Part shown: piece after piece, positions 12,793 to 19,131 of the stretch | Numbering within the stretch: the first letter of the stretch is position 1 | Layout: every line of letters begins with the position of its first letter | Virus record (IMG/VR): IMGVR_UViG_3300002460_001091 | Coordinates: 1 to 21,531 of that record | Source of the DNA: a virus | DNA length: 21,531 nucleotides | Direction: 5' to 3' (one strand) | Position numbers and translations under genes: made by a program | The notes under the pieces: generated by a model | What the model was told of the DNA's origin: nothing | Seen by the model: only the letters and a program-made list of their open reading frames with translations | Databases searched by the model: none

Positions 12793-13323
12793 ATGCCAAG
12801 ATTCAAGCCGTTTGCGGAAAGATTTCTCGACAAGATTCTTAAAACGGATAGCTGTTGGATCTGGCGGGGGAAAAAATCCAAAAGCGGTTACGGTATGGTT
12901 TATCTTAGCGGCGGGCGTTACCGAAGCGCTCATCGGGTGTCATGGGAATTGTTTGTAGGATCAATACCCGATAATCTGTACGTTCTCCACAAATGCGACA
13001 ACCCTGCATGTGTCAATCCGTCATGCTTATTCATCGGTACACAGACTAACAACATGAAGGATATGAGCGCCAAGGTTCGTTCATGGTCACAAAATCATCG
13101 TACCGAAGCTGCGGCAAGAATCGCTAGAGTCAGAAAACGGCCACCTGTCGGAGAGTCTCATCATCTTTCTAGGCTCACGGACGAAAAGGTACGGGAGATC
13201 AGGAAGCGACGGGCTGAAGGACAGAAGTATGAAGATATTGCCGCAGCAGTTGGAGTCGGGAAATCAACTGTTGGTCGCGTCGTCAATGCTGATACCAATG
13301 GAGGATGGTCGCATGTTTTATGA
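12793..13323 (+). CDS. Free-standing HNH endonuclease with C-terminal helix-turn-helix
   Basis: The 176-residue product matches HNH_3-type phage endonucleases. It has SCWIWRGKKSKSGYGMV at the N-terminus, AHRVSWELFVG, then YVLHKCDNPACVNPSCLFIG (residues about 66-85) and TQTNNMKDM. The C-terminal RLTDEKVREIRKRRAEGQ...IAAAVGVGKSTVGRVV is a helix-turn-helix for target binding. The family usually has His in 'NPxHL'; here it is Cys (NPSCL). It has its own promoter and strong RBS, and its composition is more AT-rich than its neighbours. It may be a homing or site-specific nuclease. HNH genes beside terminases can also aid packaging (HK97 gp74 is the known precedent), so that role is an alternative. 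Confidence 0.85.
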   Translation: MPRFKPFAERFLDKILKTDSCWIWRGKKSKSGYGMVYLSGGRYRSAHRVSWELFVGSIPDNLYVLHKCDNPACVNPSCLFIGTQTNNMKDMSAKVRSWSQNHRTEAAARIARVRKRPPVGESHHLSRLTDEKVREIRKRRAEGQKYEDIAAAVGVGKSTVGRVVNADTNGGWSHVL

Positions 13324-13438: not shown

Positions 13439-14054
13439 ACGCCAAAAACGCCGCAACAAGAAAGCCGCGCACCAGAAGGTGAACGCGCCGCACGCGGCCG
13501 AACTGGCGGCATTGCCGAAACCGCCGCCGATGCCAGACGGCATGGGCGGGACGGGCGAGCTATTCGACCCGCACAGAACCAAACAGGACGCCCGGCTGGC
13601 GGCCCGGATTCTCTCTTGCGGCGTCGTGACGGAGGAACAGGCGGCGAAAGTTCTGGCCGGTGCGTTCCGGCTCGGCGCCCAGGCGGTCCAGGACGGATCG
13701 GCACGCGACTACGGGGCGGCCATGCGGGTTCCGGCCGCGATCGCAAAACTCGAAATGGACCGCGAGCGGCTGGAACTCGACAAGGAAAAGGCGGGTAAAG
13801 GTGAACAACCAGAACTCCACCAGCACGTCCACAGCCATGTCCACGTTGAGGCGGGAACTCCGGGAAGCGTTGAAGGCGTTGCCGAGCAAGCAGCGATCGC
13901 TCTTGAGGAACTCGATCGACTCCTGCTTGAAGACGGGCAACACGGACAGACTATCGACGTTGCTCCGAGCAATGGACACGCGGCCGATCATCCCATTCTG
14001 CCCACACCGACCAACGGCAAAGCAAACGGCATTCCTAAGAACGGACAGCACTGA
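13428..14054 (+). CDS. Small terminase-like (TerS) packaging protein
   Basis: The 208-residue protein immediately precedes the large terminase. A Lys/Arg-rich start (SKRQKRRNKKAAHQK) is followed by TKQDARLAARILSCGVVTEEQAAKVLAGAFRL and a long charged helix ending MRVPAAIAKLEMDRERLELDKEK, the layout expected of a DNA-binding N-terminus and an oligomerising helical core. The C-terminal part is His/Ala/Asn-rich and low in complexity (LHQHVHSHVH). It would recognise packaging sites and recruit TerL. The assignment is mostly positional. It overlaps the TerL reading frame by between 83 and about 250 bases depending on the TerL start, and it overlaps the methyltransferase remnant at its beginning. 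Confidence 0.58.
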   Translation: MASKRQKRRNKKAAHQKVNAPHAAELAALPKPPPMPDGMGGTGELFDPHRTKQDARLAARILSCGVVTEEQAAKVLAGAFRLGAQAVQDGSARDYGAAMRVPAAIAKLEMDRERLELDKEKAGKGEQPELHQHVHSHVHVEAGTPGSVEGVAEQAAIALEELDRLLLEDGQHGQTIDVAPSNGHAADHPILPTPTNGKANGIPKNGQH

Positions 14055-16215
14055 AATACTGTACGGAGGTTCAGCAGGTTCCGGGAAAAGTGATGTTCTT
14101 TTAATGTCTGTTTTGCAGTACGTTCATCATCCTAATTACTCCGCAATTCTCTTCCGTCGTACTTATGCAGACTTGGCATTGCCAGGGGCATTGATGGATC
14201 GCTCGCACGATTGGCTGCAAGGGTCCGGAGCGACATGGAATGGGACAGACAAGCGTTGGCGGTTCCCAAGCGGAGCAACGATCACGTTCGGATACCTCGA
14301 CCAGCGAAACGACCGTTACCGCTATCAAGGCATGGAATGTCAGACCGTTGTGTTTGATGAGCTAACGCAGTTCAAAGAAGAGGATTACCTATATTTGTTC
14401 AGTCGGCTCCGTCGCCTTGAAGGGAGTCGCATACCTATCAGGATGTTGTCAGCAAGCAATCCTGGAGGTATTGGCAACGACTGGGTGAAACAGCGATTCA
14501 TCGTTGACCCTGGTCTAAAGAGAACATTCGTTCCCGCCGGCCTGCGTGACAATCCGTTCCTTGACCAAGAGGAATACGTCCAGGCTCTGGGCCACCTCGA
14601 CCACATCACGCGGGCGCAATTGCTCGACGGCGATTGGGACGTGGTGGCGGACGGCAACATTTTCAAGCGCGAATGGTTCCAATCATGGCGGGCACAGGAA
14701 CAGCAATACATCCTTGGTCCGAACATCGTCCCGCAACGCTCGTTCCTGCCGTTCGGCGTAGTCGATCTGGCTGTGAGCGAATCGACGTCGGCGGATTACA
14801 CGGTTATCCTGTGCTGCGAGCACGACAGTACCGGGACGCTCATCATCCGGCACTGCTACCGCGGCCGCATCGGGGCACCGGAGACGCTGGAGAGAATCAA
14901 GGCGTTGGTCAATGAGTACGGGCTGCAATGGGTCGGGGTCGAGGACGTGGCGTACCAGCGGGCCATGATTCAGTTGCTTAATCGGCAGGGCGTTCAGGTC
15001 CGGCCGATCCATCCGAAGGGCGACAAGATCGTGCGGGCACAGGCGGCGTCGGTAAAGTTTGAGCAGGGGAAGGTATGGCTACCAAAAGATGCCGCGTGGG
15101 TGCCAGAATTTGAGAGGGAGTTGTTGGCGTTTCCGGACGGATCACACGATGACCAATGTTTTGTAGCGGATACACTAATCAGTACGCCGAGCGGTCCACG
15201 TCGCATCGACACGATTCGCGTAGGGGATTTTGTTACGACAAGATCAGGAACAAGAAAGGTAGTCGCATCTGGAATAACTAGCCATTCTGCAACCGTGTGT
15301 CGCGTGCGACTATCAAACGGCATGGAACTTGTTGGGACCAGAAACCATCCCGTATTTTCTCTTGATCGTGGATGGATACCACTCGACGCTATCTCTTACG
15401 AAGATACAATGGTGCCATGTGGAAATCAGGAGCTAAATCAGAATCAATCGTTTTTAACGGCATTGTCTTCCGGAGATATCCCGAAGCAAAACAAGAGGCA
15501 TATCGAAGATATTATCGGCCGCATGGCGGGCACGTTAAAAGAGGCATTCAGCACCTTCATCAGGAAATCTGGAAATCTCATTACGGCCCTATTCCTGACG
15601 GATGCCATATCCATCATAAAGATGGAGACTTCCTTAACAACGATATATCAAATCTTGAATGTGTATCGTCGGAAAAACATCATAAGGTTCATGGCGAGCG
15701 AGGAGACTACGCCACAACAAAAGCTTTGCAGCATCTTGCTAAGATACGTCACCTTACTGTCGCATGGCATCAATCAGCAGAGGGAAAAGAATGGCATCGG
15801 CGTCATGCAAAACAACACGGATTTGGAAAAGCAATACGTCGTTGCGCCATATGCTCAGAATGCGGAAAAGACTACTGTCATGAATATGTTGGCAAGAGCA
15901 AGTTTTGCTCAGGAAAATGCAGTCTCAGGTCACGTCGTAAATCAAAGATCGACAACGAAAACAGAATATGCGCAACATGCGGAAAAGTGTTTTCTGTCAG
16001 CCGGTATGCAAAGCAAAAGAATTGTTCGCGTGCATGCGGTAGAATTGCCAGCAATCTTGCCAGGGCGGCATGTCGTTTACAATCTAACGATTGAAGGCAA
16101 TCACGAATACTTCTCTTCAGGCATACTCGTTCATAATTGCGACGCAATTTCCTACGCTTGCCGTCTCGCGTCGAACGTCGGCACGAGTTCATTCATGCCT
16201 TACGTGGTGAAGTAA
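13837..16215 (+). CDS. terL: Terminase large subunit (TerL) interrupted by an intein
   Basis: This is the ATPase-nuclease that pumps and cuts phage DNA. Walker A is GGSAGSGKS (residues about 77-85), Walker B is VVFDEL (D174, E175), and there is ADLALPGALMDRSHDWL between them. The RuvC-like nuclease has VVDLAVSE (D310), GVEDVAYQ (E369) and motif III HDDQ|CDAISYA (D438, D439). A 327-residue intein (residues about 441-767) sits exactly between Q and C of motif III. The spliced protein would be about 465 residues, normal for TerL. Starts GTG 13801, ATG 13837 and ATG 13972 are all possible; 13837 gives a usual N-terminal helix. Unspliced protein would have a broken nuclease. Confidence 0.88.
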   Translation: MSTLRRELREALKALPSKQRSLLRNSIDSCLKTGNTDRLSTLLRAMDTRPIIPFCPHRPTAKQTAFLRTDSTEILYGGSAGSGKSDVLLMSVLQYVHHPNYSAILFRRTYADLALPGALMDRSHDWLQGSGATWNGTDKRWRFPSGATITFGYLDQRNDRYRYQGMECQTVVFDELTQFKEEDYLYLFSRLRRLEGSRIPIRMLSASNPGGIGNDWVKQRFIVDPGLKRTFVPAGLRDNPFLDQEEYVQALGHLDHITRAQLLDGDWDVVADGNIFKREWFQSWRAQEQQYILGPNIVPQRSFLPFGVVDLAVSESTSADYTVILCCEHDSTGTLIIRHCYRGRIGAPETLERIKALVNEYGLQWVGVEDVAYQRAMIQLLNRQGVQVRPIHPKGDKIVRAQAASVKFEQGKVWLPKDAAWVPEFERELLAFPDGSHDDQCFVADTLISTPSGPRRIDTIRVGDFVTTRSGTRKVVASGITSHSATVCRVRLSNGMELVGTRNHPVFSLDRGWIPLDAISYEDTMVPCGNQELNQNQSFLTALSSGDIPKQNKRHIEDIIGRMAGTLKEAFSTFIRKSGNLITALFLTDAISIIKMETSLTTIYQILNVYRRKNIIRFMASEETTPQQKLCSILLRYVTLLSHGINQQREKNGIGVMQNNTDLEKQYVVAPYAQNAEKTTVMNMLARASFAQENAVSGHVVNQRSTTKTEYAQHAEKCFLSAGMQSKRIVRVHAVELPAILPGRHVVYNLTIEGNHEYFSSGILVHNCDAISYACRLASNVGTSSFMPYVVK
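15157..16137 (+). other. Intein within TerL (327 aa)
   Basis: Read in the TerL frame. Block A is CFVADTLI, with Cys1 at 15157 and N-extein Gln before it. Block B is GTRNHPVF at 15334-15357 (T61, H64 form the TxxH motif). Block F is VYNLTIEGNHEYF. Block G is ILVHN, ending with Asn327, followed by Cys +1 of the C-extein (TGC 16138-16140). All residues needed for autocatalytic splicing are present. The segment between blocks B and F, where a homing endonuclease normally resides, contains no LAGLIDADG, HNH or other recognised domain in this frame. It spans about 230 residues of unfamiliar composition. Another frame carries an HNH gene there. Confidence 0.86.
15417..16094 (+). CDS. HNH homing endonuclease nested out of frame inside the intein
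   Basis: The 225-residue product (ATG 15417; an upstream in-frame ATG is at 15372) is in a reading frame different from TerL. It starts MWKSGAKSESIVFNG and carries LHQEIWKSHYGPIPDGCHIH, then HKDGDFLNNDISNLECVSS, the HNH core (HIHH at 15606-15617), and VHGERGD. A C-terminal region has paired cysteines (CSECGKDYC, FCSGKC, CATCGKVF, CSRACG), a probable zinc-binding DNA-recognition part. It lies entirely between intein blocks B (15334-15357) and F, ending within block F. The region is much more AT-rich than neighbouring genes. No clear Shine-Dalgarno site precedes either start, so the level of translation is unknown. The likely target is the intein-free TerL site. Confidence 0.78.
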   Translation: MWKSGAKSESIVFNGIVFRRYPEAKQEAYRRYYRPHGGHVKRGIQHLHQEIWKSHYGPIPDGCHIHHKDGDFLNNDISNLECVSSEKHHKVHGERGDYATTKALQHLAKIRHLTVAWHQSAEGKEWHRRHAKQHGFGKAIRRCAICSECGKDYCHEYVGKSKFCSGKCSLRSRRKSKIDNENRICATCGKVFSVSRYAKQKNCSRACGRIASNLARAACRLQSND

Positions 16216-16227
16216 CGAAGGAAATCA

Positions 16228-16617
16228 ATGAAGGAAGCTACGATACGGGCATTCGAACAGATCAGAAAATCCGAAGTCACGGACTGGCACCGGCTCATTG
16301 GCAATGCGGAAATCAAACGAGCGAAAGCGCTCGAAGCGATCGGGCTGTCTGGGTTTCAGTATTGTCGGCCGGATGACCAAATGCTTGCGGCGGAAGTGGA
16401 TCGCATCGAAGTGGAGTATCGCGAAGCGATCAAGAGAGCTGACGATCAATTTGACTACTCACTCACACCAGACAATACCGAACCGGTCACGAATCGCGAA
16501 TGGACGCTAGCGACAAAAGTAACGTATTGCACAAGGTGCATGAAGATCCATCTGTCGCATTGGCCGGTATGTCTATCGTGCGGCAGAAGCGATAAATTCA
16601 AAGAGAGGAAACTTTAG
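16228..16617 (+). CDS. Hypothetical protein with C-terminal CxxC zinc pairs
   Basis: Starts 12 bases after TerL behind AAGGAAA. The 129-residue product is helical and charged at the N-terminus (RAFEQIRKSEVTDWHRLIGN, KRAKALEAIGL), has a middle EVEYREAIKRADDQFDYSL, and ends with YCTRCMKIHL and CLSCGRSD, two CxxC pairs for one zinc. It may be a small packaging or DNA-binding accessory. No family was recognised. Its stop TAG (16615-16617) overlaps by 3 bases the TAA of the minus-strand gene (16614-16616), so the two genes converge with no spacer or visible terminator. Confidence 0.6.
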   Translation: MKEATIRAFEQIRKSEVTDWHRLIGNAEIKRAKALEAIGLSGFQYCRPDDQMLAAEVDRIEVEYREAIKRADDQFDYSLTPDNTEPVTNREWTLATKVTYCTRCMKIHLSHWPVCLSCGRSDKFKERKL

Positions 16618-17615
16618 ACACCTTGAGTGATCTGCGAATACAGATCGTTCCACCGTGTCCATTCCCCGCGGTCCTTCGAGGAATCGAACCGGTTCCGGAC
16701 CCGCTTGATGGCTTCCGCGCGGAACAGCCGAGCCTTGCGGCGATCGCTTGGCAGTTCGTGCCGAGAGCCGAGACGTTCCATTGCCAGGTTGAAATCGTGG
16801 TCGCGTGGGATAAACGCCATCTCTTTTTGGATCAGCGTCTCATCCGCTTTCGGCATGGTAGGTAGCGACGTGTGCTTGGCGTAGGTCCGTTTCGGTGCCA
16901 AGAGCGGGGCATACTTTTCCAGCAACTCGGCTTGGTTGGCTGGCAAGCTCTTGTGGATACGTTCAATCAATGCGTCGACTTTCTTTTGGTCGGCAGCGGC
17001 GATCGTGGCCGGGGCCTTGCGTTCACCGCGTGGCGGGATTCGCTTGTTAAGGGCCTGCGACGCCACGATGGAATTGACGCGGGTCAACTGCGGCTCCGTC
17101 AATTGCCTCGAGAATTTGGAAATCTGGTACTCCAACTCGCCTGGATTCGCGTTCGGATTGTGCGTCACGTCTACCCCGAGCCGCTTTAGGTGTCCGAGGG
17201 CTTTCGCCTGTTCGTTCGCGTGGGCCTCCGCGTGCGACGGTTCTTTCGCGGCGTCCGCAGCGGGGGATTTTGCCAGCTTCTTTGTCGGTTCCTTCTTCGG
17301 TTTCGCTTCCCGCTTCTTCCGCTCGACCTTGATCTCTTCGAACTTGCCAGACGCCAAGATGCCTTTCGGCACCTGCGACCGCGACGCGACGGTACGTGGT
17401 TTGCCGGATCGCGGACCGACGAACCGGAACGCGAATTGGAGGATCTCGCGAGCCAAACCTTTGGGATCGTGCAATTGGCCGTGAATCATCCGCTGCTCCG
17501 CGTCAGGGGCGTGACGCAGGAACAGGCGGATGCAGCGATCGGGCGACAGCGACATGCGGGACGCCTTGACAGGAGTCATGACCTTGACGCGATAACGAGT
17601 TTTGACCGTTGGCAT
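16614..17615 (-). CDS. Virion-associated Lys/Ala-rich protein with shared FRFVGPRSGK motif
   Basis: Minus-strand product of about 333 residues, starting at MPTVKTRYRVKV (ATG 17615, GAGG 7 bases upstream) or at ATG 17627, which forms TAATG with the upstream gene's stop. Residues about 60-100 hold a 36-residue module (AFRFVGPRSGK...SQ.PKG.LASGKFEEIK) shared with the protease/scaffold gene. A Lys/Ala/Pro-rich linker follows (ERKKREAKPKKEPTKK), then helical segments such as LTEPQLTRVNSIVASQALNK, KKVDALIERIHKSLPANQAELL and WNDLYSQIT. The shared module and gene position suggest a head-assembly role, but the protein is not recognisable as a portal. It is transcribed opposite to the genes around it. 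Confidence 0.6.
   Translation of the reverse strand: MPTVKTRYRVKVMTPVKASRMSLSPDRCIRLFLRHAPDAEQRMIHGQLHDPKGLAREILQFAFRFVGPRSGKPRTVASRSQVPKGILASGKFEEIKVERKKREAKPKKEPTKKLAKSPAADAAKEPSHAEAHANEQAKALGHLKRLGVDVTHNPNANPGELEYQISKFSRQLTEPQLTRVNSIVASQALNKRIPPRGERKAPATIAAADQKKVDALIERIHKSLPANQAELLEKYAPLLAPKRTYAKHTSLPTMPKADETLIQKEMAFIPRDHDFNLAMERLGSRHELPSDRRKARLFRAEAIKRVRNRFDSSKDRGEWTRWNDLYSQITQGV
17328..17435 (-). repeat. Shared 36-codon module, copy 1 (minus strand)
   Basis: Encodes AFRFVGPRSGK, then a middle with SQVPKGI, then LASGKFEEIK, within the minus-strand gene at 16614-17615. It matches 29 of 36 residues of the copy at 19654-19761 on the opposite strand, while the DNA differs at many synonymous positions. 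The two copies are inverted relative to each other. Such protein-level conservation with nucleotide divergence suggests an old duplication under selection for the encoded peptide. Confidence 0.8.
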
Positions 17616-17626
17616 GGATGACCTCA

Positions 17627-19018
17627 TTAGCTGACCGGGCTGGCTCCGTCGCCGTCGCCAGCGATTCCGCCGGCGAGCGTATCTGAAATCGTCGACGTTG
17701 CATTCGACGGCAACTGAATCCCGTAATGACGACGGAAGAAATCCTGAAACGTGCCAAGCTGGTCATTGGCGACGGTGAAGGTGAACCGATCCCCGCGCAT
17801 GAACCGATCGTCGCCGGCCACGATGACCGCCCCGACGCCGCCGTGGTATGTCATGGGACCGAATGCGAGCGAATCAATCCAGATCGACATGCCGCTGGTA
17901 AGGTTAGTCGTCTTGATGGCCAGCTCGATATCGTCCGGAATGACGGCCGGCAAGTTGATCTTGAAGTACGCGAGCGTCCAGACGGTCGCGTAGTTGATCG
18001 ACTGGATGACGATTTTCTCCGTAGACGAAAGCGTGAGGCCGGTCCCCTGGAGCTGGATCGTCAGGGTCGATGCGTCGCCGGAAGCCGGTTCTTCGCTCGC
18101 CTTGTACCAGACGGCTCCGACGTAGCGACGCAGCGGCCGCAATGCCGACACGGAGAGCGATTGCGAAATCTGGATCGTGGTCTGCGAAAGCTGGCCGTCG
18201 AACCGCAAGGCCGACTCGCCGCGGAAGAAGTCGCCTGCGCTTGTGTCCTGGAAAATGTGCGTTCCGGCCGTCCCGCTGTCGATATCCCACCGGCTCGGCG
18301 CGTTGCTGCTGAACGTCTCGAAGTCGCGGTTATTGACCAACGACGAAGCGTTCAACGTCTGCAGGGTCGGACCGTTGCCGCTCCCTTCCGTGGGATGGGC
18401 CAGCGACAGATTCTCCAGTTCGCCATGCCAGCGGAACGACTCCTGACCCTCGGGCCGGCCGTCACGCTGGGAATCGGCCACGCATTCCAACGTCATGGTT
18501 TCGCCGGGGACTGCAAGCTCCGTCGGCAGCTCGTTGTATTGCTGGTGGGCCGCCATGTTCGATCCGGGCTTGGTGTAGCCATCGAGGCGGCGGGTTGTGA
18601 TAACCACCCCGTTGCCGTTGTTTATCGCGTCGGCCGATACGGACGAAAGCGTGACGGCGCACGGCTCCACAGTCTCGTTGTCTTCGTTCATGCGGCGGAT
18701 GAGTTCCGCCAGAACGGCTGCGATCCCGTTTGTTTCCATCTTTAATTCGCGGACGATTTCTTCGGCGGTGATCCGGCGAGTGATGAATCCGGCCAGCGAT
18801 GACGCCCAGCCGTCGACGTTGGACTTGAAACCCTCATAGGCGGCGACGATCCCCTCAATCTCTTTGTCTTTGTCGCCGGCCTGGAATTTCTCGATGACTA
18901 CCTGTAGATCGGCGGGGAATGTCGTGTCGGAGTAGATTTCGTAGGCGTTGATACGTTGGATGATCGAGCCGATATGTGTGAAAAGGCCATTATTTGCGCC
19001 GTCGTAGTCGATCGCCAT
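17627..19018 (-). CDS. Phage structural protein with galactose-binding-like domain
   Basis: Minus strand, 463 residues from ATG 19018 (MAIDYDGANNGLFTHIGSII); an upstream in-frame ATG near 19114 would add an Arg-rich leader that looks like non-coding sequence. The first 140 residues are helical (GIVAAYEGFKSNVDGWASSLAGFI, ELKMETNGIAAVLAELIRRM). Residues about 220-385 contain SLVNNRDFETFSSNAPSRWD, a pattern seen at the start of jelly-roll carbohydrate-binding (CBM4/9-like) domains. Beta strands to SIWIDSLAFGPMTYHGG follow. The end has GDRFTFTVANDQLGTFQDFF and RHYGIQLPS. It is a virion protein by style, likely part of the head or neck, but I know no exact family. TAATG couples it to the next minus-strand gene. 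Confidence 0.62.
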   Translation of the reverse strand: MAIDYDGANNGLFTHIGSIIQRINAYEIYSDTTFPADLQVVIEKFQAGDKDKEIEGIVAAYEGFKSNVDGWASSLAGFITRRITAEEIVRELKMETNGIAAVLAELIRRMNEDNETVEPCAVTLSSVSADAINNGNGVVITTRRLDGYTKPGSNMAAHQQYNELPTELAVPGETMTLECVADSQRDGRPEGQESFRWHGELENLSLAHPTEGSGNGPTLQTLNASSLVNNRDFETFSSNAPSRWDIDSGTAGTHIFQDTSAGDFFRGESALRFDGQLSQTTIQISQSLSVSALRPLRRYVGAVWYKASEEPASGDASTLTIQLQGTGLTLSSTEKIVIQSINYATVWTLAYFKINLPAVIPDDIELAIKTTNLTSGMSIWIDSLAFGPMTYHGGVGAVIVAGDDRFMRGDRFTFTVANDQLGTFQDFFRRHYGIQLPSNATSTISDTLAGGIAGDGDGASPVS

Positions 19019-19131
19019 GTGTGCAACGTGACCGGCCCGACCGCGACGGGCACAGGAGACGCGGGAGCGACCCGCCGATTTTTTTCCATAATAGGCGGTT
19101 TTTTTGAAATACACCGCATCTAATTGGCCTT

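Follow-up and report, generated by a model that had tools for sequence, protein, structure and literature searches.

A terminase mini-intein with a probable HNH homing endonuclease gene overlaid in a shifted frame recurs across phage sequences

Introduction

Canonical homing-endonuclease inteins such as PI-SceI carry their nuclease in frame, within the same polypeptide. The window analyzed here, a 21,531-nucleotide stretch of viral DNA (IMG/VR record IMGVR_UViG_3300002460_001091), raises the question of whether an intein and its nuclease can instead occupy different reading frames of the same DNA. A first-pass annotation of this sequence placed an intein in the terminase gene terL and a homing endonuclease in another frame on top of it. 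Here, we ask whether both are present, which frame is selected, how the nuclease might be made, and whether the arrangement is mobile.

Results

The terL gene of the window contains a predicted class 1 mini-intein

The TerL reading frame of the window is stop-free from 13660 to 16215, with candidate start codons at ATG 13837 or 13972, and its product is 40% identical to psiM2 TerL. Inside it lies a 327-residue intein at 15157–16137 with intact splicing residues; the first-pass annotation had both its coordinates and its motifs right. The intein starts at C1 with CFVADTLI, has GTRNHPVF as block B, ends in VYNLTIEGNHEYFSSGILVHN, and is followed by a +1 Cys. At the insertion point the window reads DDQ, intein, C, DA, versus an uninterrupted DDQ-V-DA in psiM2 TerL, where Val occupies the +1 position. 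The insert matches the Pfam models Intein_splicing and Hint_2 as well as the TIGR intein N and C models. In an AlphaFold model, the Hint domain is confidently folded (pLDDT ~95) and the linker is not (~45). The Hint model matches solved inteins, with the gp41-1 intein as the best PDB match (E = 3.5e-6). The sequence features of class 1 inteins are all found: an N-terminal Cys, TxxH in block B, a C-terminal Asn, C/S/T at +1, and the Hint fold. Sequence and model together suggest that the insert is a class 1 mini-intein that would be removed by protein splicing. The features of the locus are:

13972–15156, + strand: TerL N-extein, spanning the ATPase domain and the larger part of the RNase H nuclease domain (Pfam Terminase_6N / Terminase_6C, phrog_979)
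15157–15420, + strand: intein N-terminal Hint segment with C1, block A and block B (T61-x-x-H64) (motifs, Pfam/TIGR; model pLDDT ~96)
15372–16094, + strand, −1 frame relative to TerL/intein: putative HNH homing endonuclease gene (Pfam, PHROG, conservation, structure model)
15421–16029, + strand: intein-frame linker, stop-free, unconserved and of low model confidence, overlapping the HNH gene (pLDDT ~45; identity in pairs)
15552–15683, + strand, −1 frame: HNH_3 catalytic domain (HIHHKDGDFLNNDISNL...H...H), residues 61–104 (PF13392, E = 2.6e-16)
15852–15920, + strand, −1 frame: first zinc ribbon of the HNH protein, C-x2-C...C-x3-C (invariant Cys columns C146/C149/C164/C168)
15969–16037, + strand, −1 frame: second zinc ribbon of the HNH protein, C-x2-C...C-x3-C (invariant Cys columns C185/C188/C203/C207)
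16030–16137, + strand: intein C-terminal Hint segment with blocks F and G, last residues HN (TIGR01443; pLDDT ~94)
16138–16215, + strand: TerL C-extein, first residues CDAISYA (+1 Cys; psiM2 comparison)

An HNH gene overlies the intein in the −1 frame

A full HNH gene had been proposed in another frame, starting after block B and ending inside block F. Such an ORF is present at 15372–16094, offset by +2 (equivalent to −1) from the TerL/intein frame. Its start is likely ATG 15417 (225 aa), with ATG 15372 (240 aa) as the second candidate, and its stop is the TGA at 16092–16094. Database searches of both translations return matches: the intein models given above and, for the shifted frame, Pfam HNH_3 (E = 2.6e-16) and the PHROG family phrog_15471 HNH (E = 1e-34). 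This answers the concern, raised by the first-pass annotation itself, that the alternate frame might resemble no known HNH protein, and it bears out the architecture of one DNA segment that codes both for a mini-intein with the residues to splice and for an HNH gene of its own.

The catalytic motif and the zinc ribbons are both present in the window protein, and its AlphaFold model has a mean pLDDT of 92 (alignments for the structure models were built without the GenBank-record loci). A fold search with this model returned no significant whole-protein match. The closest solved HNH protein by sequence is I-HmuI, an intron-encoded endonuclease (E = 4e-4). The window protein resembles it in carrying an HNH_3 domain, although the whole-protein fold match is weak. 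A second HNH_3 gene, freestanding and with a helix-turn-helix C-terminus, lies at 12793–13323 (+), just 5′ of the terL region.

The same arrangement recurs in about 130 distinct phage sequences

Both signals were first seen together in Tetrasphaera phage TJE1, Rhodobacteraceae phage LS06-2018-MD07, Acinetobacter phage Highwayman, several IMG/VR contigs, and a phage scaffold from faeces. Pattern searches of IMG/VR with a single protein recovered few relatives, one finding only the window itself and another nine, and alignment-based scans were needed; these yielded 160 further loci, some on contigs already found. A scan of a contig collection added one relative (L017), and 299 genomes of the window's phylum gave no match except the window's own genome. 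HMM classification returned 153 loci with an HNH gene within a contiguous open intein frame, every one at offset 2 and none in frame. A looser C-block threshold gave 156 loci, which reduced to 132 unique loci and to 129 after clustering at 80% HNH identity.

A canonical in-frame endonuclease between blocks B and F is absent from the window and from all 132 unique loci, all of which have offset 2. An open frame was among the criteria used to recognize overlap loci. A search with HNH alone, which did not condition on openness, returned 80 loci: 64 overlaid, four in split inteins, eight with HNH and no intein, and four cut or partial. Most of the 129 non-redundant loci have their nearest HNH neighbor at 40–60% identity. 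Splicing residues are nearly invariant among them, with C1, the final N and a +1 C/S/T in 129/129 and TxxH in 128/129. The double-coded TerL intein is a large, recurrent class of about 130 distinct phage sequences, widespread and mostly unannotated. In all three annotated GenBank records examined (L012, which is TJE1; L014; and L015, which is Highwayman), TerL is annotated and the overlaid HNH gene is not listed; annotators miss such genes.

Substitutions follow the HNH frame

Over the HNH gene, the intein frame contains no stops in 129 loci, versus 2.06 expected per locus, and the third frame has 17.4 per locus. Among freestanding and split HNH controls, by contrast, the equivalent frame is closed in 22 of 22 scorable genes, with 1–14 stops each. 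Stops in the −1 frame depend on what follows nTA and nTG codons. In the freestanding and split genes, a purine follows 59% of nTA codons and an A follows 31% of nTG codons; the overlaid genes contain none of these contexts, because their intein frame is open. Content of Leu, Ile, Val and Met is nearly equal in the two sets. This unchanged protein composition suggests that the open intein frame is supplied by codon choice rather than by protein change.

In 14 related pairs, changes within the overlap concentrate on the third position of HNH codons (0.38 versus 0.21 and 0.16), and those in the Hint part concentrate on intein position 3. Nearly all pairs are less conserved across the overlap when it is read as intein than when it is read as HNH, and in most the linker identity falls far below that of HNH. 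Since overlap substitutions keep to the codon phase of HNH, selection acts on the HNH protein, and all that is asked of the linker is to avoid stops. Of the selection on both frames that the first-pass annotation proposed to look for, the HNH half is borne out, and the other half is not: the intein frame over HNH is an unconserved, stop-free linker.

Start codons point to internal initiation of the HNH gene

The HNH gene begins with ATG in 121/128 loci, at a median position of 260 nt into the intein. A Shine-Dalgarno (SD)-like motif precedes 42% of the nearest ATGs versus 7% of internal start codons, a six-fold enrichment; in the window itself, no clear SD precedes the HNH start. The HNH frame meets an upstream stop close to the ATG, at a median distance of 12 nt and within 30 nt in 81% of loci. 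A slippery heptamer appropriate to the frame occurs in 9/121 loci. Internal initiation is the simplest reading of these start codons and of the SD enrichment, and on that reading the enzyme would be made with no need to fold inside the precursor.

Relatives carry signs of recent homing and of nuclease decay

Two Acinetobacter phages allow an intein-bearing terL to be compared with an empty one. Without its intein, Highwayman TerL has the same length as Acba_21 TerL. Across 3.1 kb of alignment, the stretch from −163 to +12 nt around the insertion holds 15 mismatches. The flanks on either side, −1609 to −164 and +13 to +1473, hold none, and the few other mismatches start at +1474, where the alignment nears its end. 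Within the tract, a Leu-to-Cys change provides the +1 Cys that splicing requires. We read it as a co-conversion tract, the mark of recent homing, in a relative whose HNH protein is 37% identical to that of the window. The insert is absent from about 40 further Acinetobacter phage records that match Highwayman terL; among relatives of the window's host, no empty TerL site was found.

Insertion registers vary from +1 to +5 relative to RY around TerL motif III across the 129 loci, which is unusual for intein alleles. In L004, L005, L125, L133, L158 and L171, the overlaid element sits elsewhere in TerL, at what appears to be nuclease motif I or an ATPase motif. In L148, L172 and L046, the HNH gene is internally deleted or truncated and the intein frame is still open, as if the endonuclease were decaying. 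The first-pass annotation had counted a broken HNH frame beside intact splicing blocks as evidence against its claim, and the internal deletions in L148 and L172 are a milder form of this. Because about 127 relatives lack such deletions and a co-conversion tract is present, these two loci likely represent the endonuclease decay stage of the homing cycle.

Alternative explanations

Could the second frame be an accident, with a mini-intein crossing a meaningless ORF, or could sequencing errors have shifted a nuclease that is really in frame? At a single locus the numbers leave some room for this. When synonymous codons were permuted with the HNH protein and codon set kept, the intein frame over the window HNH stayed open in 0.8% of shuffles, so the earlier estimate of roughly 2 in 100,000 was too small and one such frame is only moderately unlikely by chance. 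Recurrence settles the matter: 129 non-redundant relatives share the same frame and geometry with a conserved, well-folding HNH protein, and dual coding is not chance. Sequencing error joining the frames is contradicted by the identical IMG/VR sequence and by the recurrence of the design in independent genomes, and we give this explanation almost no credence. An RNA-level self-splicing intron, for which an HNH gene in its own frame is the usual layout, is equally hard to credit. An Rfam scan of 14900–16400 found no catalytic RNA core of a group I or II intron, the host frame is stop-free in all overlap relatives, and the insert has complete intein splicing residues and a Hint fold. On the absent Rfam match, the residues and the fold, we rejected a group I/II intron.

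Two further proposals accept both frames and differ over the nuclease. Its position in the −1 frame would suit programmed −1 frameshifting out of the TerL-intein frame, yielding HNH fused to TerL-HintN. Such a product calls for a slippery site and an HNH frame open far upstream with no start of its own; the loci instead have a nearby upstream stop, enriched ATG and SD motifs, and few proper heptamers. We rejected this product and regard it as very unlikely. Alternatively, HNH might be a helper nuclease for DNA packaging, maintained for the sake of the terminase and not for homing, since nearly every locus examined has it inside or next to terL and HNH proteins belong to the packaging machinery of many phages (Kala et al. 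2014). The element is nevertheless missing from terL of near-identical phages, a co-conversion tract flanks an insertion, registers are scattered, and the copies in L148 and L172 have decayed, all of which make a packaging role improbable.

Discussion

With high confidence, we propose that the locus is a composite mobile element, made of a mini-intein and an overlaid, independent HNH gene with its own internal initiation, that homes into intein-less terL. A TerL-frame mini-intein, consisting of a Hint domain with a long disordered loop, would splice out of the terminase after translation. The HNH gene, laid over the loop in the −1 frame, would be initiated internally about 260 nt into the intein. 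Its product would cut intein-less terL at active-site codons, mostly those of nuclease motif III (D-[AST]-x-RY). The break would then be repaired with the intein-bearing copy as template, and the whole element would be transferred. Direct support comes from the architecture, its recurrence, HNH conservation, the stop-free frame and, in a relative, the co-conversion tract. Removal of the intein by splicing, translation of HNH on its own, DNA cleavage, and the capture of terL-adjacent freestanding HNH genes into mini-inteins are steps that we infer from sequence.

Why one frame is always used may follow from HNH composition. The many K, R, D, E, N and S residues of HNH proteins would place frequent stops in the other shifted frame, whereas −1-frame stops would arise only after certain Leu, Ile, Val and Met codons and could mostly be removed by synonymous changes. 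The −1 frame would be usable for this reason, with the intein frame over the HNH gene close to neutral save for a ban on stops.

The same HNH family also occurs outside overlaid inteins. It is freestanding directly 3′ of an intein-less terL with intact motif III in six loci (L019, L022, L029, L067, L078 and L094), and it lies between split TerL intein halves in L070, L080, L087 and L097, and probably in L016 (Vibrio phage 1.238.A). These three forms are consistent with possible capture of a freestanding, terL-targeting nuclease gene by a mini-intein; capture would be a protein-level analogue of collaborative homing. HNH distances correlate weakly with Hint distances (r = 0.09) and modestly with TerL distances (r = 0.35), so the unit may not always travel intact. 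The broadest reading, in which a large, previously uncharacterized class with its nuclease overlaid in the one HNH-permitted frame arose by capture of terL-adjacent HNH genes and is actively spreading, is one we hold tentatively, at slightly under even odds.

Several known systems share part of this design. As in canonical inteins such as PI-SceI, the window has a Hint domain, a nuclease between blocks B and F, and an insertion in active-site codons; unlike them, its nuclease is out of frame and predicted to be a separate protein. The fractured genes, in which split inteins flank a freestanding homing endonuclease gene (HEG) (Dassa et al. 2009), likewise place a separate HEG inside an intein-interrupted gene. 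The window intein, however, is contiguous, with the single open frame 13660–16215, and would splice in cis; its HEG overlaps the intein rather than separating halves. The split layout, with halves on separate ORFs and the HEG between them, is not found in the window and occurs in L070, L080, L087 and L097.

The nearest parallel is the ShiLan domain, where an HNH lies out of frame within a phage methylase; its authors found no intein or intron splicing domain and inferred homing from its distribution (PMC11855218). Like the window HNH, it is concealed in a second frame of a host ORF that has no stops; in our reading, the hidden HNH is also at offset 2, which supports the composition argument for the frame. 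Its HMM similarity to the window HNH is weak, its domain order (zinc ribbon, HNH, zinc ribbon) differs, and its target is a methylase with no splicing domain, whereas a complete intein surrounds the window HNH. In connection with overlapping actinophage frames, the same group cites a preprint of its own, which deals with "non-canonical architecture" in actinobacteriophage inteins (bioRxiv 10.1101/2025.01.02.630785). That preprint may already describe out-of-frame endonucleases in inteins, perhaps the present architecture. Among the papers covered by full-text literature searches, none describes an out-of-frame endonuclease in an intein.

An in-frame fused nuclease is not the sole layout of a mobile intein, and an overlaid gene with its own start is possible. 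Such a start leaves the nuclease free to evolve, and to decay, independently of the splicing domain, and the reverse. Because one HNH family occurs freestanding, overlaid, and between split halves, the joining of homing genes to self-splicing elements becomes directly testable. Elsewhere in the window, long ORFs overlap on opposite strands across 16614–19114 (17627–19114 minus, 17726–18745 plus, and 16614–17627 minus). The two minus-strand ORFs have no Pfam match, and each stretch there probably holds one real gene.
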